A DNA stretch of 39,305 nucleotides, from contig CANBVR010000011.1 in assembly GCA_947372965.1 (NCBI GenBank), positions 1 through 39,305 on the forward strand, read 5' to 3'. Numbering within the stretch: position 1 is the first letter of the stretch; each line of letters opens with the position of its first letter. The translations under genes were made by a program, and so were the position numbers. The notes beneath the pieces were generated by a model that worked only from the letters and a program-made list of their open reading frames with translations, was not told the DNA's origin and did no database searches. The DNA is from Actinomycetota bacterium. Lineage in GTDB: Bacteria > Actinomycetota > Actinomycetes > Nanopelagicales > Nanopelagicaceae. Shown piece after piece: positions 3,255 through 29,971 of this stretch.

Positions 3255-4448
3255 GTGGCAAAGGCTAAATTCGAGCGCAACAAGCCGCACGTAAACATTG
3301 GCACAATTGGTCACATTGACCACGGTAAGACCACTCTTACTGCTGCCATCTCAAAGGTACTTCACGATAAGTACCCAGATGTAAACCCATTCACACCGTT
3401 CGATCAAATCGATAAGGCGCCAGAAGAGCGTCAACGCGGTATCACAATTTCGATCGCACACATCGAATACCAAACTGAGTCACGTCACTATGCACACGTT
3501 GACTGCCCAGGCCACGCTGACTACATCAAGAACATGATTACTGGTGCAGCTCAAATGGACGGCGCAATTCTTGTAGTTGCTGCAACTGATGGACCAATGC
3601 CACAGACAAAGGAGCACGTACTACTTGCTCGTCAGGTTGGCGTTCCATCAATCGTTGTTGCTCTAAACAAGTCAGATATGGTTGACGATGAAGAAATTCT
3701 TGAACTTGTTGAAATGGAAGTTCGCGAACTTCTAAGCAAGTACGAATTCCCAGGCGATGACACACCAATCGTTCGTATCTCAGCACTTAAGGCTCTCGAA
3801 GGAGATGCAAAGTGGGCTGAATCAATCATGGAACTAATGGCTGCGGTTGATTCATTCATCCCACAACCAGCTCGTGAAGTTGATAAGCCATTCTTGATGC
3901 CAGTAGAAGATGTTTTCACAATCACAGGTCGTGGAACCGTTGTTACCGGTCGTATCGAGCGCGGTATTGTTAAGGTCAACGAAGAAGTTGAAATCGTTGG
4001 TATCCGTCCAGATTCACAGAAGACAACTGTTACCGGCGTAGAAATGTTCCGCAAGCTTCTTGACGAAGGTCAAGCAGGCGAGAACGTTGGACTTCTACTT
4101 CGTGGAACAAAGCGTGAAGATGTAGAGCGTGGCCAGGTTGTTTGCAAGCCAGGTTCAATCACACCTCACACTGACTTCGAGGCAAATGCTTACATCCTTT
4201 CAAAGGATGAAGGCGGACGTCACACACCATTCTTCAACAACTATCGCCCACAGTTCTACTTCCGTACAACTGACGTAACAGGAATCGTAACTCTTCCATC
4301 AGGAACAGAAATGGTTATGCCTGGCGATAACACTGAAATGACCGTAGCTCTTATTCAACCAATCGCTATGGAAGATGGTCTTCGCTTCGCTATTCGTGAA
4401 GGTGGCCGCACAGTAGGTGCAGGTCGCGTAACAAAGATCATCAAGTAA
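3255..4448 (+). CDS. tuf: translation elongation factor Tu
   Basis: EF-Tu delivers aminoacyl-tRNA to the ribosome (397 aa, usual length). P-loop [13 protein letters not shown], switch region [22 protein letters not shown] and NKSDMVDD are all present. The GTG start follows a very strong AGGAGGAAAA ribosome site, consistent with extremely high expression. The 69-bp spacer from fusA is rich in AAC/TAAC repeats and I see no promoter in it. A hairpin follows the gene. Only one tuf copy is seen in the window. Confidence 0.98.
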
Positions 4449-4466
4449 TACAAAAAAGTAGTAAGG

Positions 4467-4490
4467 GTGAGTGGCCGAAAGGCCACTCAC
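4467..4490 (+). terminator. hairpin between tuf and rpsJ
   Basis: A perfect 10-bp stem, GTGAGTGGCC with GGCCACTCAC, closed by a GAAA tetraloop, begins 19 nt after the tuf stop. It is followed by TTAGTAAAAA rather than a U-run. It could be an actinobacterial U-less terminator, a stabilising 3' end for tuf mRNA, or part of the S10-operon leader. No clear promoter is visible between it and rpsJ, so partial read-through is plausible. Confidence 0.6.
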
Positions 4491-4550
4491 TTAGTAAAAA
4501 AGAATTCATAAATTTTCGAAACTAGCAGTAAAGAAAAAAAGGAGAAGCAA

Positions 4551-4859
4551 ATGGCGGGACAAAAGATCCGCATTCGGCTTAAGGCTTACGACCACGAAGT
4601 GATCGACACCTCTGCGAAGAAGATCGTTGAGACTGTAGAGCGCACTGGTGCGACCGTTGCTGGGCCAGTTCCACTGCCAACAGAGAAGAACACATTTTGT
4701 GTTATTCGCTCTCCTCATAAGTACAAGGACAGCCGCGAACATTTCGAGATGCGCACACACAAGCGCCTAATCGACATCATCGATCCAACTCCTAAGACAG
4801 TTGACTCATTGATGCGTCTTGATTTACCTGCTGGCGTCGACATTGAAATTAAGCTGTAA
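4551..4859 (+). CDS. rpsJ: 30S ribosomal protein S10 (NusE)
   Basis: S10 is a 30S head protein and, as NusE, a partner of NusB/NusG in antitermination (102 aa, usual length). It begins [19 protein letters not shown], with the family [31 protein letters not shown] motif in sections. ATG start behind AAAGGAGAAG. First gene of the S10 operon, 14 bp before rplC. The 60 bp between the tuf hairpin and this gene are AT-rich without a convincing -35/-10 pair. Confidence 0.98.
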
Positions 4860-4873
4860 GGAAGCGCTGACAA

Positions 4874-5563
4874 ATGACAAATAAGACTATTCAATCTCAG
4901 GGATCTGCCATCAAAGGCATCCTGGGCAAGAAGCTTGGTATGACCCAAGTCTTCGATGCCAATAACAAGATTGTTCCGGTGACAGTAATTGCTGCAGGTC
5001 CTTGTGTTGTTACACAGATCCGCACAGTTGAAAAGGATGGCTACACAGCCGTTCAACTGGCATTTGGCGCAACCGATCCCCGCAAGGTAACCAAGCCAGA
5101 AGCTGGTCACTTTGCTAAAGCAGGCGTAACTCCTCGCAGCGAAGTTGGCGAACTTCGCACATCAGATATTTCTAACTACACAGTTGGCCAAGAAGTTCGC
5201 GCAGATGTATTTGCTGCTGGCGAAATTGTTGATGCAACTGGAACCTCACGCGGTAAGGGATCTGCTGGTGTAATGAAGCGCCACGGTTTCTCTGGTATCG
5301 GCGCATCTCACGGTGTTGACCGTAAGCACCGTATGCCAGGTTCTATCGGTAACCGAACAACACCAGGTCGCGTTTTCAAGGGAAAGCGAATGATGGGCCG
5401 CATGGGTGTTGACACCGTTACAACACAAAATCTTCTAGTTCATTCAGTTGATGCTGAGAACTCACTTCTTCTAATCAAAGGTGCAGTTCCTGGTGCAACA
5501 AACTCGATCGTCTTCATCCGCTCTGCGGCCAAGAAGGCTAAAGCAGAACAGGCAGGTGCATAA
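4874..5563 (+). CDS. rplC: 50S ribosomal protein L3
   Basis: L3 binds 23S rRNA near the peptidyl-transferase centre and initiates 50S assembly (229 aa). It has a short actinobacterial-style N-terminal lead, then [14 protein letters not shown], the central loop [19 protein letters not shown] and the [19 protein letters not shown] segment that reaches toward the catalytic centre. ATG is preceded by AAGGAAG. rplD follows after 3 bp, implying translational coupling. Confidence 0.98.
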
Positions 5564-5566
5564 CTC

Positions 5567-6241
5567 ATGGCACTTAAAGTAGATATTAAGAGCGCAGAAG
5601 GAAAGGTAACTGGTTCAGTCTCACTTCCAGCCGAAACCTTCGACGTTCAAGCAAATGTTCCACTAATCCACCAAGTTGTTGTTGCTCAACTTGCAGCTGC
5701 TCGCGCAGGAACTGCAAAGACCAAGAACCGTGGTGAAGTAAGCGGTACAGGTAAGAAGCCTTTCAAGCAGAAGGGAACCGGTCGCGCCCGTCAGGGTTCA
5801 GTCCGTGCTCCATTGCAGCGTCACGGTGGTGTTTCACATGGTCCAGTACCTCGTAAGTACGATCAACGCACACCAAAGAAGATGATCGCAGCAGCGCTTA
5901 AGGGCGTTCTTTCAGATCGTCAACGTGAAGATCGTATCCACGTAATTGATGCAATCTCTGCAAAGAGTGCTTCAACTCAAGGTGCAATCACTGCAGTTCG
6001 TCAGTTCTCAGATCGCAAGAATCTTCTAGTTGTTCTAGCTCGTACCGAAGATATGGCATGGCGTTCACTTCGCAATGCAGACAATCTTCACCTCATCGTT
6101 AACGATCAATTAAATGCTTACGACGTTCTAGTAAGCGATGACATCGTTTTCACTGAGACAGCGATCAAGGAATTCATCACTGGATCAAACAAACCAGCAA
6201 CCGCAGTTGCTAGAGAAAGCGAAGTTGAGGTGTCAGCATGA
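5567..6241 (+). CDS. rplD: 50S ribosomal protein L4
   Basis: L4 lines the polypeptide exit tunnel and in E. coli represses its own operon (224 aa). The tunnel loop is recognisable as [19 protein letters not shown] followed by [11 protein letters not shown]. The ATG lies 3 bp after rplC with only a weak ribosome site, so coupling to rplC is likely. It overlaps the rplW start by 4 nt (ATGA). Confidence 0.97.
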
Positions 6242-22694: not shown

Positions 22695-23708
22695 ATGTCG
22701 ACGCAGATCATCGCAATTGAATGGGCTGATGGTTCGGTCCGACTTATAGATCAAACACTTCTGCCAGTTGAAGAGAAGTATCTTCAAATCAAAACAGTTG
22801 CAGAACTAATCGACTCAATTAAACGTTTGGCAGTTCGCGGCGCACCAGCCCTTGGCGTTGCAGGTGCATATGGTGTGGTCCTCGCCCTCGATGAAGGTAA
22901 AGAGAAAAACTGGAGCCCAACAGAATTAGAGAAGCAGATTGATGCAATTCGCGATGCTCGTCCAACTGCGGTAAACCTTGCTTGGGGCGTGAATCAAGTT
23001 CGCCCACTTATTTCACAGGGACGCGATGCAGTTCTAAAGGCGGCTCAAGATTTAGCAGCCGCTGATCGTAAATCAAATACCGATATGGGAAATATCGGCG
23101 CAGACTGGTTGATTGCAAAGTTGGGCGATCGAAAGTTTAATCTTTTAACGCACTGCAATACGGGATCATTGGCTACCACCGGAACAGGTACCGCCCTTGG
23201 TGTTATTAAAGAATTGCATAAACGTGGCAAGGTTCAAGAAGTCTTTGCCGATGAATCTCGCCCACTTTTACAAGGATCAAGGTTAACTGCTTGGGAGCTA
23301 GCAAAATCTAATATTCCTTATCGCATCCAACCTGATAGCGCTGCCGCGATGGCAATTCTCGGTGGAAAGATTGATGCGGCGTTAATAGGCGCAGATCGCA
23401 TTGCAAAAAATGGCGATAGCGCAAACAAGATTGGTTCACTTGGAGTGGCGCTGGCCTGCCATATTGCAGGAATTCCATTTCTAGTTGTGGCACCGGAATC
23501 TACAGTTGATCGCACGATTGCTGATGGTTCACAAATACATATTGAAATTCGTGGCGATCGGGAAGTGACCCATCTTGGCGATACACAATTAGCACCTGAT
23601 GGTGCTAAGACATTTAATCCAGCCTTTGATGTCACTCCCGCAAGATTTATCTCAGCCGTAATTACTGAATTAAAAGCATATGAAATAGCCAAAGGTGAAG
23701 CACTGTGA
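22695..23708 (+). CDS. mtnA: S-methyl-5-thioribose-1-phosphate isomerase
   Basis: Aldose-ketose isomerase turning 5-methylthioribose-1-P into 5-methylthioribulose-1-P (337 aa, usual length), of the eIF2B-alpha-like fold. Catalytic C154 in LLTHCNTGSLATTG and D234 in LIGADRIAKNGD match the known Cys/Asp pair; VRGAPALGVAGAYG near residue 48 is the N-terminal signature. Close homologues act on 5-deoxyribose-1-P, so either substrate is possible. First gene of the cluster, apparently leaderless. Its stop overlaps the next start (GTGA, 4 nt), implying coupled translation. Confidence 0.93.
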   Translation: MSTQIIAIEWADGSVRLIDQTLLPVEEKYLQIKTVAELIDSIKRLAVRGAPALGVAGAYGVVLALDEGKEKNWSPTELEKQIDAIRDARPTAVNLAWGVNQVRPLISQGRDAVLKAAQDLAAADRKSNTDMGNIGADWLIAKLGDRKFNLLTHCNTGSLATTGTGTALGVIKELHKRGKVQEVFADESRPLLQGSRLTAWELAKSNIPYRIQPDSAAAMAILGGKIDAALIGADRIAKNGDSANKIGSLGVALACHIAGIPFLVVAPESTVDRTIADGSQIHIEIRGDREVTHLGDTQLAPDGAKTFNPAFDVTPARFISAVITELKAYEIAKGEAL

Positions 23709-25675
23709 GTCAATACAAACCGCTCGAAGAATTAGTCGCCCGCTCCCAAAAGCTTGGGGCCGATCAGAGCCTTGTTGTCTTTGGCGGCGGAAACACTTCA
23801 AGTAAGGGCGAGATCACCGATCATCTTGGGCGATTAAAAGCAGTTCTTTGGGTAAAGGGTTCTGGCGCGGATATGCAGCACGCGATTGCTAAAGATTATC
23901 CCGCCCTATATTTAGATGAACTTCACGAGCTCGCCAAATTTGATGATCTAGATGATGACACGATGGTTGATTATGTGACTCGCGCACTTGTTGATCCAGC
24001 CTCAAGGCGTCCTTCAATTGAAACTCTTTTGCATGCATTCCTGCCGGCAAAACATATTGATCACGTTCACGCAGATGCAATCTGTGCCCTTACAAATCAT
24101 CCAAAGGGCGAAAAAGCTGTTAAAGATGCTCTTGGCGATGGCTTTGCATATGTGGATTGGAAGCGTCCTGGCTTTGAACTATCAAAGATTGTTGGAGCGC
24201 TAAAGGATCACGAAGGTGTTGTATTGGCCCATCATGGACTTGTCGTTTGGGATGAAGATTCCGATCGCTGCTATCAGAAGAATTTAGTTGCAATTGAGAA
24301 ATCAGAAAAGTATTTGGATTCTTTTGCCAAACGGCCAGAATCTAAATTCGTGCACCAAGAGGTTCCACTAAATGAGTTAAATCAACTTCTCCTAAAGCTA
24401 CGTGGAACTCTAGGAAAGAAGCAGATTTTGCGAGTGGATAACCGACTTGCGGAAATTGCTTCCCGTAAAGATCTGAGCCAGGTTTTATCGGCGGGGGTTT
24501 CAAGTGCGGATCATATGCTTCGAATTCGACCAAAGTCAGCGCAAGTAACTTTGTCAGATCCAAAGAGCGGAATTGAAAAGTATCGCGAAGAGTATGCCAG
24601 CTACTTTGATGCCAATAAGAATTTGCTGCCGCAAGGCTATTCCAGTCACGGCAATGATCCAAAGGTAGTTCTAGTTCCTAGCGTTGGAGCAATTACAACT
24701 GGTGCCAATTTAACTGAAGGAGAGATGCTCGCTGATATCGCAACTCATACGCACGAAGTTGCGGCTCGGGTTATTGATGTCTTCGGCGAAGGTCGTTCGT
24801 TGCCAGATTCTGAAATATTTGGTTTTGATTATTGGCCGATGGAGCTATTTAAATTAAAGAACCGACCATCTCCTGCAAAATTTACGGGCCATATCTACGT
24901 AGTGACAGGCGCAGGCAGCGGGATTGGTCGCGGTATTTCTCTAGAGCTTGCCAGACTTGGCGCTTGCGTAACTTTGGCAGACCTAGATGAAAAAGGTTTG
25001 AAGGAAGTGGAAGCAGAATTTAGGAGTAACAAGTATTTAGATCCACTTCTTATTGTGGGGGATCAATCTGATGAGGCGACAGTAGCCCGAACTGTTGCCG
25101 AAACTATTTCCCACTTTGGTGGAATAGATGGTGCCGTAATTAATGCTGGTATCGGAGTCTCAGATAAGTTAGAAGAGTTAACGGTTGATAAATGGCGCAA
25201 AGGGTTAGAAGTAAATCTTTCAAGTGCCTTCCTGATGACCAAAGAAGTTATGGGCGCACTTAAGACACAAGGCTTTGGTGGTTCTGTTGTTTATGTTGCA
25301 AGCAAGAATGCATTTGCGCCAGGTGCTGGTTTCGGTGGGTACTCCGTAACGAAAGCTGGAATGCTGCAATTAATGCGAATCGCAGCACTTGAAGGTGGTG
25401 GCGATGGAATTCGCTTTAATGCGGTTAATCCCGATGCCGTATTTGATAACAGTAAGTTGTGGGCCGGTGGCATCCGCGAACAACGTGCTGCGGCGCATGG
25501 CGTTAAACCGGAAGATCTGGAAGATTTTTACGCCTCAAGAAATCTCTTAAAGGCTCGAGTTAGAAGTGTTGATGTTGCTAATTCAGTAGCCTTCTTGCTT
25601 TCCGATGAATCATCTCGTACCACCGGAGCTGTTATTGCAGTTGATGGTGGCGTAGCAGCAGCCTTCCCACGGTAA
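23705..25675 (+). CDS. bifunctional class II aldolase / short-chain dehydrogenase
   Basis: Two enzymes in one chain (656 aa), the architecture of rhamnulose-1-P aldolase/lactaldehyde dehydrogenase fusions. Residues 1 to about 370 form a zinc class II aldolase/adducin domain: FGGGNTSSK, the metal pair H120-x-H122 in HVHADAICALT, and H176/H177 in LAHHGLVVWDED. Residues about 395-656 form an SDR domain: TGAGSGIG at 401-408, NAG at 480-482, and S533, Y546, K550 (YSVTK). Beside mtnA and mtnK, the likely reaction is cleavage of methylthioribulose-1-P or 5-deoxyribulose-1-P to DHAP plus a C2 aldehyde, with the SDR reducing or oxidising that aldehyde (inference). No rhamnose genes are nearby. Start GTG overlaps mtnA. 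Confidence 0.88.
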   Translation: MSQYKPLEELVARSQKLGADQSLVVFGGGNTSSKGEITDHLGRLKAVLWVKGSGADMQHAIAKDYPALYLDELHELAKFDDLDDDTMVDYVTRALVDPASRRPSIETLLHAFLPAKHIDHVHADAICALTNHPKGEKAVKDALGDGFAYVDWKRPGFELSKIVGALKDHEGVVLAHHGLVVWDEDSDRCYQKNLVAIEKSEKYLDSFAKRPESKFVHQEVPLNELNQLLLKLRGTLGKKQILRVDNRLAEIASRKDLSQVLSAGVSSADHMLRIRPKSAQVTLSDPKSGIEKYREEYASYFDANKNLLPQGYSSHGNDPKVVLVPSVGAITTGANLTEGEMLADIATHTHEVAARVIDVFGEGRSLPDSEIFGFDYWPMELFKLKNRPSPAKFTGHIYVVTGAGSGIGRGISLELARLGACVTLADLDEKGLKEVEAEFRSNKYLDPLLIVGDQSDEATVARTVAETISHFGGIDGAVINAGIGVSDKLEELTVDKWRKGLEVNLSSAFLMTKEVMGALKTQGFGGSVVYVASKNAFAPGAGFGGYSVTKAGMLQLMRIAALEGGGDGIRFNAVNPDAVFDNSKLWAGGIREQRAAAHGVKPEDLEDFYASRNLLKARVRSVDVANSVAFLLSDESSRTTGAVIAVDGGVAAAFPR

Positions 25676-25682
25676 ATCTAAA

Positions 25683-26906
25683 ATGTCAGATTACGAGTTT
25701 TTAACGCCAGAAAATATTCCTGGCTATTTAAAGGCTCATCCGCAAACGCATTCAATTGTGGACCACAGTAATTTAGTTGAAATCCAAGAAGTTGGAGATG
25801 GCAATTTAAATCTAGTTTTTATTATCAAAGACAACGCAGGTGACGGAATCGTCCTGAAGCAAGCACTGCCATATGTTCGCCTTGTCGGTCCAAGCTGGCC
25901 AATGTCACCAGACCGAGCTCGAATCGAATATGAAACAACAACAGCACATGCGCAAGCCGCGGCCGATCTTGTGCCGCTTATATATTTCTATGACAATGCT
26001 CGCTACATAATTGCGATGGAAGATCTCTCTGATCATCGCGTATGGCGTGGTGCGTTGAATGATGGGCAATTCCACCATGGCAGTGCAGCTGCAGTAGGTG
26101 AATATATGGCGAAGGTTTTGTTTAAGACTTCTATCTTTGGACTGGGTCAAGCGGCTCATAAGTTCGAGGTGGCGCGAGCAATTAATCCGGAGATGTCACT
26201 TATCACTGAAGACCTAGTTTTTACCGAACCATGGTACCCAGGCGATCGAAACAGTTATTTACCGGAGAATGAACCCGATGCGATTGCAATCACAAAAGAT
26301 GAATTCATGAAATTAGAAATAGGAAAACTGAAGTACGAGTTCATGACCAACGCAGAGGCTCTGATCCATGGAGACCTTCATTCTGGTTCCGTCATGGTCA
26401 AAGCTGATGAATCCGGAAAGAGCATTTCAACAAAGGCATTCGACTCAGAATTCTCATTCTATGGACCTGTTGCATTTGATATTGGAGCCGTTATTGCAAA
26501 TTACTACATCGCCATGGCTCGTTCAGTTGCGCTAAATCGCAACGAGCATCTTGAATATTTAACAGACTTACCAACGCAAACTTGGAATTCGTTTGAATCC
26601 AATTTTCGAGCGTTATGGCCAACTCGAAAAGATAGTCGGATATTTAGTGATGAATTATTAGACGTAATTATTATGAAATGGAAAGTTGACTCCCTTGGAT
26701 TTGCCTGCGCAAAGATGTGCCGAAGAATCGTTGGTTTAGCTAAAACAACAGATATTGAGACTTTAGCTCCTAACTACCGGATAGGTGCGGCGCGAGGCGT
26801 TCTACAATCAGCGCAAATGATCATTCGCGAACGCTTGAAGAATACAGATATCTCTCATGTCACAGAGCAAGTACTTTTAATTTTGGCAAAAACAAAGACC
26901 GTTTGA
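25683..26906 (+). CDS. mtnK: S-methyl-5-thioribose kinase
   Basis: ATP-dependent kinase forming 5-methylthioribose-1-P (407 aa, usual length), of the aminoglycoside phosphotransferase-like fold. Diagnostic segments: EVGDGNLNLVF at 36-46, KQALPYVRLVG and SWPMSPDRARIE at 59-82, catalytic HGDLHSGSVMV at 229-239 and the metal-binding DSEFSFYGPVAFDIGA at 254-269. It supplies the substrate of MtnA, although mtnA lies two genes upstream. ATG is 7 bp after the aldolase stop, with no evident ribosome site. Related kinases can use 5-deoxyribose. AT-rich codon use is close to that of the rest of the cluster. Confidence 0.93.
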   Translation: MSDYEFLTPENIPGYLKAHPQTHSIVDHSNLVEIQEVGDGNLNLVFIIKDNAGDGIVLKQALPYVRLVGPSWPMSPDRARIEYETTTAHAQAAADLVPLIYFYDNARYIIAMEDLSDHRVWRGALNDGQFHHGSAAAVGEYMAKVLFKTSIFGLGQAAHKFEVARAINPEMSLITEDLVFTEPWYPGDRNSYLPENEPDAIAITKDEFMKLEIGKLKYEFMTNAEALIHGDLHSGSVMVKADESGKSISTKAFDSEFSFYGPVAFDIGAVIANYYIAMARSVALNRNEHLEYLTDLPTQTWNSFESNFRALWPTRKDSRIFSDELLDVIIMKWKVDSLGFACAKMCRRIVGLAKTTDIETLAPNYRIGAARGVLQSAQMIIRERLKNTDISHVTEQVLLILAKTKTV

Positions 26907-26933
26907 GTCTTTTTGGACTATTATCAAATTCTA

Positions 26934-27860
26934 ATGAATTCAAATAAGTCAGCACACAATCTAATAAAGATGCAAGAGATTGCCACGGGAATACGGAGGC
27001 GGGTTCTAGCGCATACGCTTTCTAATAATGGTGGCTATATGAGTCAGGCTTGTTCGTCTGCTGAGTTATTGGCCGCAATGTATGGCGGAATATTGAATCT
27101 GGCCCCAGTTCCAAGTCCAATCGACCCACCATCATTTATTGGTGTGCCGTTGGTGGGAAAAGCAATCAAAAGAGATTACTTAACTGGAGCACAATTCCAT
27201 GGCGCCAAGGGTCCAGAGTTTGATCGCTTTATTGTTAGCCCAGCGCACTATGCCCTAGTTGTTTATGCAGCTTTGATTGAAACGAATCGACTTCGCGAAG
27301 ATGGGTTAGAGCATTTCAATAAAGATGGTTCAACCGTTGAAATGATTGGCGCCGAACACTCACCCGGATTTGAAACAACGACCGGATCGCTTTCTCAAGC
27401 AATTTCACAAGCTGGTGGCATCGCACTTGCTCGAAAGCTCCGTAAGGAATCTGGCAAGACTTGGGTTTTCATGAGCGATGGTGAATTTCAAGAGGGACAA
27501 ACCTGGGAAGCACTGCAAGCTGCCGCCTTCCACAAACTAGATAAGTTGCGAGTAATCGTGGATGTAAATCAAGCGCAGTGCGATGGTCCAATGGATTCTG
27601 TTATGTCGATCGAGCCATTAGTGGCTCGAGTTAAGGCATTTGGTTGGAGCGCCTCTGTTGTAGATGGACATGAACTTTCAGCCATTACCGATGCATGTGC
27701 TTTGGATACCGGCCACCCGCATATCGTTCTTTGTTACACCGATCCAGTTCGCGGTCTACCGCTACTTAATGAACGCCGCCCAGTACTTCATTACCTCCGC
27801 TTTAAGAGCAAGGATGAGCATGCTAAGTACGAGCTTGCTTATAAAGAGATGGTGAAATAA
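26934..27860 (+). CDS. transketolase, N-terminal (thiamine diphosphate) subunit
   Basis: ThDP-binding half of a two-subunit transketolase (308 aa). It contains NNGGYMSQACSSAELLAAMY near residues 31-50, DRFIVSPAHYALVVYAAL with the conserved His, GSLSQAISQAGGIALA, and the ThDP/Mg motif SDGE at 181-184 ending in N212 (DVNQAQ). The first Gly of the usual GDG is Ser. I chose ATG 26934; an in-frame TTG at 26913 would add seven residues and neither start has a ribosome site. The partner follows directly with no gap. The substrate is unknown; split transketolases of this type often serve a specific sugar pathway rather than central carbon flow. Confidence 0.88.
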   Translation: MNSNKSAHNLIKMQEIATGIRRRVLAHTLSNNGGYMSQACSSAELLAAMYGGILNLAPVPSPIDPPSFIGVPLVGKAIKRDYLTGAQFHGAKGPEFDRFIVSPAHYALVVYAALIETNRLREDGLEHFNKDGSTVEMIGAEHSPGFETTTGSLSQAISQAGGIALARKLRKESGKTWVFMSDGEFQEGQTWEALQAAAFHKLDKLRVIVDVNQAQCDGPMDSVMSIEPLVARVKAFGWSASVVDGHELSAITDACALDTGHPHIVLCYTDPVRGLPLLNERRPVLHYLRFKSKDEHAKYELAYKEMVK

Positions 27861-28874
27861 ATGAGCTATGAAATTGTGGCTCGCCCACACGAACAGAACT
27901 TCATTGATTGGTCGAAAGATAAGCCGGAAGTAGTGGTACTTACCGCTGACTTAACTAATTCTTGTGAAGTCGGCAGGTGGCGAGATACCTACCCAGATCG
28001 CTATTTTTCAATGGGTATGGCCGAGCAGAACATGATGGGCATGGCTGCTGGTTTGGCCCGTGAAGGTTTCGAACCTTGGCTCCACACTTTTGCCGTATTT
28101 CTTTATCGTCGTCCACTTGATCAATTACAGATGTCAGTTGCTTATCCATCACTCAAGGTGCGGTTGATGGGATTTTTGCCAGGGATTATGACTCCAGGTG
28201 GTGTTACACACCAAGCGATTGAAGATATTGCTGTACTTCGTTCTGTTCCAAATATGACGATCTTTGAGGTCGGAGATGCAACTGAAGCCGAATCAATTCT
28301 TGACGTGGCTCACGAAGTTGATGGCCCGGTTTATATTCGCGCCCTTCGAGGTGAAGTAAGTCGGATTTTTCCTAAGAGTGAGCCATTTAAATTCAATACG
28401 GCAAGAATTCTTTCAACTGGAAGCGATATCACTTTGATTACATCTGGAATCATAACCGAGGAAGCGCTTCGCGCAATTCCTTTGTTGCAGGAAAAAGGTA
28501 TTGGCATAAACCATTTGCATATATCAACCCTTAAACCGTTTACAGACCCATTGGTGCTTAAGGCAATCGAGGGAGCAAAGCACGGAGTAATAACCATGGA
28601 GAATCACTCAATCGTTGGTGGCCTCGGGAGTATGGTCGCAGAACTCATGGCAGATAATGGAATTGGGTTAAAGCTAAAGCGGATTGGCCTGCAGGATACA
28701 TATGCACATGGCGCATCACAGAAGTATTTGATGTCAGAGTATGGATTAGATGCAAAAGCTTTGGTTGAAACTGTGGCTACTTTGTTAGGCAAGGATTTGG
28801 GCATTAGCGAAACTGATTTGCAAGAAGTGAGAACGGTAAGCGTTCACAGTAGTGCAAAGGCAGAGGCGCTATGA
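27861..28874 (+). CDS. transketolase, C-terminal subunit
   Basis: Pyrimidine-binding and C-terminal domains of the split transketolase (337 aa). The catalytic glutamate that activates ThDP is E55 in MGMAEQNMMG. HTFAVFLYRRPLDQLQ and THQAIEDIAVLRSVPNMTIFE follow, then the C-terminal domain with ENHSIVGGLGSMVAELM. The N-terminal subunit ends immediately upstream, so an obligate heteromer is expected. A tail of about 30 residues after LLGKDLGI is not typical. The last codon overlaps the RuBisCO-like gene by 4 nt (ATGA), tying transketolase and RuBisCO-like protein synthesis together. Confidence 0.88.
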   Translation: MSYEIVARPHEQNFIDWSKDKPEVVVLTADLTNSCEVGRWRDTYPDRYFSMGMAEQNMMGMAAGLAREGFEPWLHTFAVFLYRRPLDQLQMSVAYPSLKVRLMGFLPGIMTPGGVTHQAIEDIAVLRSVPNMTIFEVGDATEAESILDVAHEVDGPVYIRALRGEVSRIFPKSEPFKFNTARILSTGSDITLITSGIITEEALRAIPLLQEKGIGINHLHISTLKPFTDPLVLKAIEGAKHGVITMENHSIVGGLGSMVAELMADNGIGLKLKRIGLQDTYAHGASQKYLMSEYGLDAKALVETVATLLGKDLGISETDLQEVRTVSVHSSAKAEAL

Positions 28875-29971
28875 CCGAATCATTAATTGTCACATACGAA
28901 TATTTTGGCGAGGATCCAAAAGCAATTGCTGATGTAATCCGAGTAGAGCAATCAATTGAATTTCCAAATGATCTTGCTCCGGCTTGGATACAAGATGAGG
29001 TAGTAGGAAAGATTGTCGAAATTACTTCGCTAAATCCAAATTCTCACCAAATTAAGATTGCCTTCAACCCAGATAACACTGGTGGAGAGTTGCCACAATT
29101 CTTAAATGTCTTGTGGGGAAATGCCTCACTATTTCCTGGCCTGCGAGTCATCGATGTTGACTTACCAGATTCATTAACTAAGAAATTTAAGGGCCCACGA
29201 TTTGGAATTGAAGGGTTGCGCAAACACTTCGGCGCACCAACCAGGCCACTCTTAACAACCGCACTTAAACCAATGGGCTCGGATTCAAAGACCCTTGGTG
29301 AGATGGCGCGAACACTTGCGCTTGCTGGTTTTGATTTGATTAAAGATGATCACAGTCTGGCAAACCAACCATGGTCTAAGTGGCGCGAGCGCGTTGAGGT
29401 AGTTGCAACAGCGGTACAAGAAGCTAATCAAATCACTGGTAAGAATTGTGCCTATGCACCAAGTTTGAATTTGCCTTTTGATCAAGTCCACGAAGCTGCA
29501 CATACTGCCAAAAAGCTAGGCGCAGGTTCACTTTTAGTTTTGCCAGGAATTACTGGCTTTGATTCGATGCGAACTCTTGCAGAGGACGATTCGATCGCGC
29601 TTCCAATCCAAGCCCACCCAGCACTTTTGGGATCTTTTGTTTCATCTCCTACAAATGGAATTGCACATGGAATTATTTTCGGAACCATTGCACGATTAGC
29701 TGGCGGAGATATTTCTATATTCCCAAATACTGGCGGACGTTTCTCGTTTACTCCTGCGCAATGCTTAGAAATCAAAGCCAAGGCAGTTGCCCCACTTGGA
29801 AATCTAAAACCAATTTGGATTGCTCCTGCGGGTGGAATGACCTTAGAGCGAATTCCAGAGATGCTTGCTAGTTATGGAAGTGATACGGCGCTTCTAATTG
29901 GTGGGGCGCTAAGCCGAGGGGATCTGGCGGCCAATGCCGCAGCGATGGTTTCGGCCGTTTCTGGGCGTTAA
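28871..29971 (+). CDS. RuBisCO-like protein (form IV)
   Basis: Large-subunit RuBisCO homologue (366 aa) that should not fix CO2. The N-terminal GN motif (83-84) and barrel are clear. K133 (equivalent to K175) lies in TALKPMG, but the K177 position is Met. The carbamate motif is KDDH at 158-161: the lysine (K201) and D203 are kept, E204 is His. Loop 6 reads FPNTGGR (284-290) and lacks K334; S379 appears to be Ala (APAGGM, 318-323). Known form IV proteins enolise or isomerise methylthio-pentulose phosphates, or act in apionate catabolism. With mtnA and mtnK nearby, a methylthio or deoxy-pentulose phosphate is a likely substrate. Start ATG overlaps the transketolase stop. Last gene of the cluster. 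Confidence 0.9.
   Translation: MTESLIVTYEYFGEDPKAIADVIRVEQSIEFPNDLAPAWIQDEVVGKIVEITSLNPNSHQIKIAFNPDNTGGELPQFLNVLWGNASLFPGLRVIDVDLPDSLTKKFKGPRFGIEGLRKHFGAPTRPLLTTALKPMGSDSKTLGEMARTLALAGFDLIKDDHSLANQPWSKWRERVEVVATAVQEANQITGKNCAYAPSLNLPFDQVHEAAHTAKKLGAGSLLVLPGITGFDSMRTLAEDDSIALPIQAHPALLGSFVSSPTNGIAHGIIFGTIARLAGGDISIFPNTGGRFSFTPAQCLEIKAKAVAPLGNLKPIWIAPAGGMTLERIPEMLASYGSDTALLIGGALSRGDLAANAAAMVSAVSGR

Follow-up and report, generated by a model that had tools for sequence, protein, structure and literature searches.

A RuBisCO-like protein and a split transketolase in one actinobacterial operon: a possible new route for recycling S-adenosylmethionine by-products

Gene content of the operon

The stretch of DNA analysed here (the window; 39,305 nucleotides, contig CANBVR010000011.1 of a Nanopelagicaceae genome, Actinomycetota) contains a gene for a RuBisCO-like protein (RLP), the last of a tight operon with the order mtnA, aldolase-SDR fusion, mtnK, TkN, TkC and RLP, in which TkN and TkC encode the two subunits of a split transketolase (Table 1). 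Gaps between the genes range from -4 to 7 bases; mtnA and the aldolase gene overlap by 4 bases, and so do TkC and RLP, where the RLP start overlaps the TkC stop. The gene set of the DHAP shunt is clustered in the window, where mtnK and mtnA are joined by the putative shunt aldolase of class II. A separate cluster of the host genome (G000:C5, L151) combines a BMP-type binding protein with an MTA/MTI phosphorylase and an amidohydrolase related to MTA/5'-deoxyadenosine deaminases, and probably constitutes a second entry to MTR-1-P.

Table 1. Genes of the operon and motifs of the RuBisCO-like protein, in window coordinates
Feature	Coordinates	Strand	Remarks
mtnA, S-methyl-5-thioribose-1-P isomerase	22695..23708	+	TIGR00512, 388 bits (cut-off 279)
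Class II aldolase / short-chain dehydrogenase (SDR) fusion	23705..25675	+	RhaD-ADH-like; under every full-length equivalog cut-off
mtnK, S-methyl-5-thioribose kinase	25683..26906	+	TIGR01767, 387 bits (cut-off 275)
TkN, split transketolase N-terminal (ThDP-binding) subunit	26913..27860	+	315 aa, TTG start; H26 to Tyr, H100 to Met (E. coli numbering)
TkC, split transketolase C-terminal subunit	27861..28874	+	337 aa; E411, H473, R520, S385 and R358 kept, D469 to Gly (E. coli numbering)
RLP, DeepYkr type	28871..29971	+	366 aa, ATG start; predicted 5-(methylthio/deoxy)ribulose-1-P 1,3-isomerase
KDDH motif, RLP residues 158-161	29342..29353	+	corresponds to RuBisCO K201-x-D203-E204, His for Glu
FPNTGGR, RLP residues 284-290	29720..29740	+	loop-6 region without the catalytic lysine

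Active site and clade of the RuBisCO-like protein

The RLP matches the Pfam RuBisCO_large family with 78 bits. Its AlphaFold2 model (mean pLDDT 95.6) has its best PDB match in 3qfw, a RuBisCO-like protein of R. palustris (TM 0.90, 1.7 A, 34% identity), and the sequence identity between the two proteins is only 34-38%. We take 3qfw to be RLP1 (RPA2169) by elimination, since R. palustris rlp2 has its own PDB entry, 2qyg.

Active-site residues were compared in an alignment of 98 rows, made up of 93 relatives and reference sequences. As the original prediction had read them from the single sequence, the equivalents of K175 (K133), K201 and D203 are kept, the latter two within the motif formed by K158, D159, D160 and H161 (K201 to E204); K177 is replaced by M135, E204 by H161 and S379 by A320, and the loop-6 lysine of form I-III RuBisCO, K334, is absent, with FPNTGGR in its place. 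These residues bear out the exclusion of a carboxylase role, and judged by them the protein should be unable to fix CO2. Enolisation-type chemistry, also proposed at the outset, is plausible, as RLP1 with the same residue set is a measured isomerase of the DeepYkr clade, converting MTRu-1P to MTXu-5P with a kcat of 1.3/s (PMC5893883).

The original prediction had further suggested that the His of the putative metal site might mark a distinct form IV clade, and here it failed. The KDDH motif, the loss of the loop-6 lysine (FPNYGGR in 3qfw) and Ala379 within PAGG are common to the window RLP and 3qfw; K175, K201, D203 and His204 agree in both, the one difference being Met135 in the window RLP and Gln in RLP1. 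A cupin-linked RLP of Terrarubrum carries the same set as 3qfw (KDDH, FPNxGGR, PAGG), and the His occurs in 90 of the 93 relatives, while three MtnW enolases have KDDE, with Glu instead of His. KDDH is therefore the general state of a clade of known function, an outcome that the original prediction had itself named as refuting, and the alignment rules it out as the marker of a new one. In a tree of DeepYkr-like and MtnW sequences, which left out the RLP of R. rubrum as well as the remaining form IV clades (Photo, NonPhoto and others), all 95 DeepYkr-like rows fell on one side and MtnW on the other, with a support of 100. The window RLP, nearest to RLP1 by sequence and fold and apart from MtnW, is thus placed by sequence as a further member of the known DeepYkr isomerase clade, and its predicted isomerase function is assigned by homology. 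It is set apart by its genomic association with a transketolase and not by the metal motif.

Pairing with transketolase among relatives

The proposed partnership with a transketolase was borne out in the window, and across relatives it holds far beyond chance. A split or fused transketolase lies at most 4 kb from the RLP gene in 62 of 93 relatives; another 14 lack one despite more than 3 kb of flanking sequence on either side, and 17 are too close to a contig end, so that the two genes adjoin in 62 of the 76 relatives with enough flank. The order mtnK-mtnA-TkN-TkC-RLP is frequent. Transketolase-linked loci occur in at least nine phyla, among them Actinomycetota, Chloroflexota, Acidobacteriota, Spirochaetota, Pseudomonadota, Bacillota, Thermotogota, Deinococcota and Synergistota. 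One record labelled Rhodothermota is probably a mislabelled bin. Records L023, L046 and L053, titled Bifidobacterium breve or Rubrivirga, hold the aquatic actinobacterial cluster, and their titles suggest mislabelled bins. The adjacency persists down to an RLP identity of about 40%, with changing flanks, and in Treponema the transketolase is a single fused chain. RLP-linked TkC subunits form nearly one group, and RLP and TkC distances correlate with r = 0.86 over 59 loci, although shared ancestry alone also yields such a correlation. Searches of viral contigs found no relatives.

On plasmids of Rhizobiaceae and Devosiaceae a ribose-type ABC transporter precedes mtnK-mtnA-TkN-TkC-RLP. The Thermaceae genome L081 contains mtnA-TkN-TkC-RLP and no class II aldolase match at all, and the transketolase-RLP module can therefore stand without the DHAP shunt there. 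Conversely, this transketolase is missing from the mtnA-aldolase-RLP loci of a nested actinobacterial subclade (the TkC matches in its genomes are only about 35% identical), and Lachnospiraceae loci combine the RLP with an aldolase and microcompartment genes, again without transketolase; the RLP thus does not always need the transketolase. On a plasmid of Vibrio nigripulchritudo (L111, 4994-10629), TkN-TkC-RLP has no mtnK or mtnA nearby; its neighbours are genes for a xylulokinase-like FGGY kinase and an SDR, and it possibly serves another substrate. Taken with the transketolase-free loci, this locus indicates that the cluster is modular and that its substrate may vary.

In Ponticoccus alexandrii, a plasmid-borne cluster mtnA-TkN-TkC-RLP (L110) includes a bisC-family S/N-oxide reductase (3698-5974), together with a nucleoside deaminase and a phosphorylase. 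This content fits a methylthio nucleoside, and the reductase, which perhaps reduces MTA sulfoxide, favours a methylthio substrate there. Microcompartment loci with a DeepYkr RLP were found in Treponema (L083/L153) and in Lachnospiraceae and Oscillospiraceae (L084, L089, L090). They contain an ABC transporter, mtnK, mtnA, a class II aldolase, a PduL-type PTAC, EutN, an acylating AldDH, an RnfC-like protein and shell proteins, to which L083 adds a fused transketolase. That transketolase is not the sole possible aldehyde source in the Treponema locus, because the contig also encodes a class II aldolase, upstream of mtnK.

Two further observations concern the neighbourhood. Six relatives (L022, L024, L031, L047, L049 and L051) have a gene for a SnoaL-like protein of about 120 aa (cluster c14) next to mtnK and the transketolase/RLP genes. 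In Ornithinimicrobium cavernae the intact RLP gene is followed, about 2 kb downstream, by another copy (L060, 12858-13748) that appears to be broken.

Active site of the split transketolase

The best PDB matches of both window subunits are those of the split transketolase of Carboxydothermus (6yaj, 6yak), likewise built from two subunits. Residues were surveyed in 56 TkN and 61 TkC sequences of RLP-linked loci in E. coli numbering, which was checked. D155, N185, H261, E411, H473 and R520 are kept in all of them, S385 in 60 of 61 TkC, and R358 in most, so that the catalytic Glu, the Mg/ThDP ligands and the phosphate-binding Arg and Ser are present. The two His residues of ordinary transketolases are missing in nearly all copies: H26 is Tyr in every TkN and H100 is Met in 52 of the 56. 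D469 is Gly in 60 of the 61 TkC. The host's canonical transketolase retains H26, H100 and D469, and so does the Carboxydothermus enzyme, unlike the RLP-linked enzymes, which replace all three.

In transketolases H26 and H100 lie at the C1-C3 end of the donor, and hydroxyl groups of the substrate are contacted by D469, which makes a donor with a different group at C1 plausible. Much of the same signature is shared by split transketolases from loci that lack an RLP (L116, L118, L119 and partly L126), with Tyr, Met (Ile) and Gly (Tyr) at the His26, His100 and Asp469 positions. H26Y/H100M/D469G can thus be ruled out as an RLP-specific signature; as far as sequence comparison goes it appears to mark a wider subfamily, and it is not specific evidence for the donor of the RLP-linked enzymes.

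Cupin methylsulfurylase and sulfur metabolism of the host

The RLP1 of R. palustris and the RLP of R. rubrum are DeepYkr MTRu-1P 1,3-isomerases of the MTA-isoprenoid shunt, where they are partnered by a cupin methylsulfurylase. Our RLP resembles them in fold, KDDH, missing loop-6 lysine, Ala379, FPNxGGR and the tie to MtnA chemistry, but it is accompanied by a split transketolase and no cupin was found. The cupin MTXu-5P methylsulfurylase was not found in the host genome (92% complete) or in 20 other transketolase-linked genomes or records, which gave only weak matches to other cupins (E 5e-6 at best), while the positive control was recovered with E 1e-114. The search covered 23 targets, including the control and the transketolase-less L084, also negative; two targets were plasmid records and not whole genomes. 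In Terrarubrum, where the order is RLP-cupin-cysE, the cupin matches R. rubrum 3jzv with E 3e-51.

A DXS (636 bits) is present in the host genome, as is a canonical transketolase, and this rules out the split transketolase as a DXS replacement. The genome has MetY, and no PAPS reductase was detected in the 92% complete assembly.

Proposed pathway and alternatives

5-Methylthioribose and 5-deoxyribose are by-products of S-adenosylmethionine. We propose, with a probability of about 0.5, that the operon serves the salvage or catabolism of one or both of them, and that the RLP product is cleaved by the split transketolase in place of the cupin step. The substrate may be methylthioribose or 5-deoxyribose. 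MtnK and MtnA, assigned by curated models, would yield 5-(methylthio/deoxy)ribulose-1-P, in which the RLP, to judge from its clade and shared active site, would shift the carbonyl along the chain by enolisation to give 1-(methylthio/deoxy)xylulose-5-P. A ketose-1-P such as MTRu-1P is no transketolase donor, C1 being phosphorylated; the RLP step would turn it into a xylulose-type ketopentose-5-P with the geometry of one. Such isomerisation is catalysed by R. palustris RLP1 and R. rubrum RLP (PMC5893883), and since this known reaction yields a 1-substituted xylulose-5-P with donor geometry, RLP and transketolase together make chemical sense. The split transketolase would presumably cleave the C2-C3 bond, releasing glyceraldehyde-3-P; the C2 unit left bound to ThDP would bear the methylthio (or methyl) group and may depart as (methylthio)acetaldehyde, pass to an acceptor or lose methanethiol. 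Through the aldolase-SDR fusion, the same ribulose-1-P would have a second way out, along the DHAP shunt.

A more specific version, which we consider doubtful, makes the RLP-linked transketolase a ThDP lyase for 1-methylthio-xylulose-5-P, whose ThDP-bound methylthio-enol would expel methanethiol to give glyceraldehyde-3-P, methanethiol and acetate or acetyl-P. Comparable expulsions are those of sulfite in sulfoacetaldehyde acetyltransferase and of water in phosphoketolase. The methanethiol could enter methionine synthesis through MetY, and the route would amount to oxygen-free methionine salvage without the glutathione-dependent cupin.

The cluster shares mtnK, mtnA and a class II aldolase with the DHAP shunt of E. 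coli ATCC 25922, B. thuringiensis and R. rubrum, and many relatives also have a sugar transporter; it differs in the RhaD-like aldolase fused to an SDR, in the added RLP and transketolase, and in that some relatives lack an aldolase near the cluster. With the sulfo-transketolase SqwGH it would share the recruitment of a split transketolase for the breakdown of a sulfur-bearing sugar. SqwGH removes the non-sulfonated C2 end, whereas here the C2 end would bear the methylthio group, with the RLP supplying the substrate.

It is possible, though rather unlikely, that the RLP does no more than supply isoprenoid synthesis with MTXu-5P or, from 5-deoxyribose, with 1-deoxyxylulose-5-P and that the transketolase has another job, for instance using aldolase aldehydes as acceptors. 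In R. rubrum and R. palustris the clade's isomerase works in the isoprenoid shunt (PMC5893883), several loci combine RLP with aldolase but no transketolase, and transketolases can take deoxysugar acceptors, converting 5-deoxyribose to 7-deoxysedoheptulose (PMC8102628). Against it stand the failure to find the methylsulfurylase in the 21 transketolase-linked genomes or records searched, the DXS already present in the host, and the Rhizobiaceae and Thermaceae clusters, which have no aldolase within the stretch read and yet keep a strict transketolase-RLP adjacency.

That the RLP isomerises or epimerises another ketose-1-P, as OiaX/OiaT-type RLPs do in apiose breakdown, the mtn annotations being nominal, appears improbable. 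The Vibrio nigripulchritudo locus is consistent with it, as are the recruitment of split transketolases to other sugars, such as SqwGH for sulfoquinovose (PMC11659671), and the use of mtn-like kinase/isomerase/aldolase trios for 5-deoxyribose (PMC6079011). However, MtnK and MtnA of the window exceed curated equivalog cut-offs, and the RLP reaches only 76.9 bits with the OiaX model NF042437, whose cut-off is 700.

A role as 2,3-diketo-5-methylthiopentyl-1-P enolase (MtnW) of classical methionine salvage is very improbable, for although the best NCBIfam model is the MtnW-type PRK09549, the scores lie far under the curated cut-offs (206 of 409 bits and 164 of 513.6), KDDH, N84, FPNxGGR and PAGG are unlike MtnW, the tree separates the two, and mtnB, mtnX and mtnD are not adjacent to the RLP gene. 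A purely historical adjacency devoid of functional coupling is also very improbable. It would fit mobile operons moving as blocks, since only 5 of 37 genomes of the host's family have the operon, a patchy distribution, but it hardly accounts for an association held across so many phyla and so low an RLP identity, amid changing flanks and with a fused transketolase in Treponema.

Significance

No description of RLP and transketolase pairing was found in the literature searched (RLP with transketolase, apiose, methylthio, microcompartment), and the operon is apparently undescribed; within that literature it is a new variant of the salvage of S-adenosylmethionine by-products. It suggests that the sulfur-containing or deoxy sugars left from S-adenosylmethionine may be recycled along an additional route. 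If the proposed pathway is right, a relative of RuBisCO would prepare a substrate for transketolase and not only feed isoprenoid synthesis, and a function would be assigned to a widespread gene pair. Bacteria of at least nine phyla would gain a direct route from S-adenosylmethionine by-products to central metabolism, and the host, with MetY and no detected PAPS reductase, could draw on methylthio sugars for carbon or reduced sulfur.
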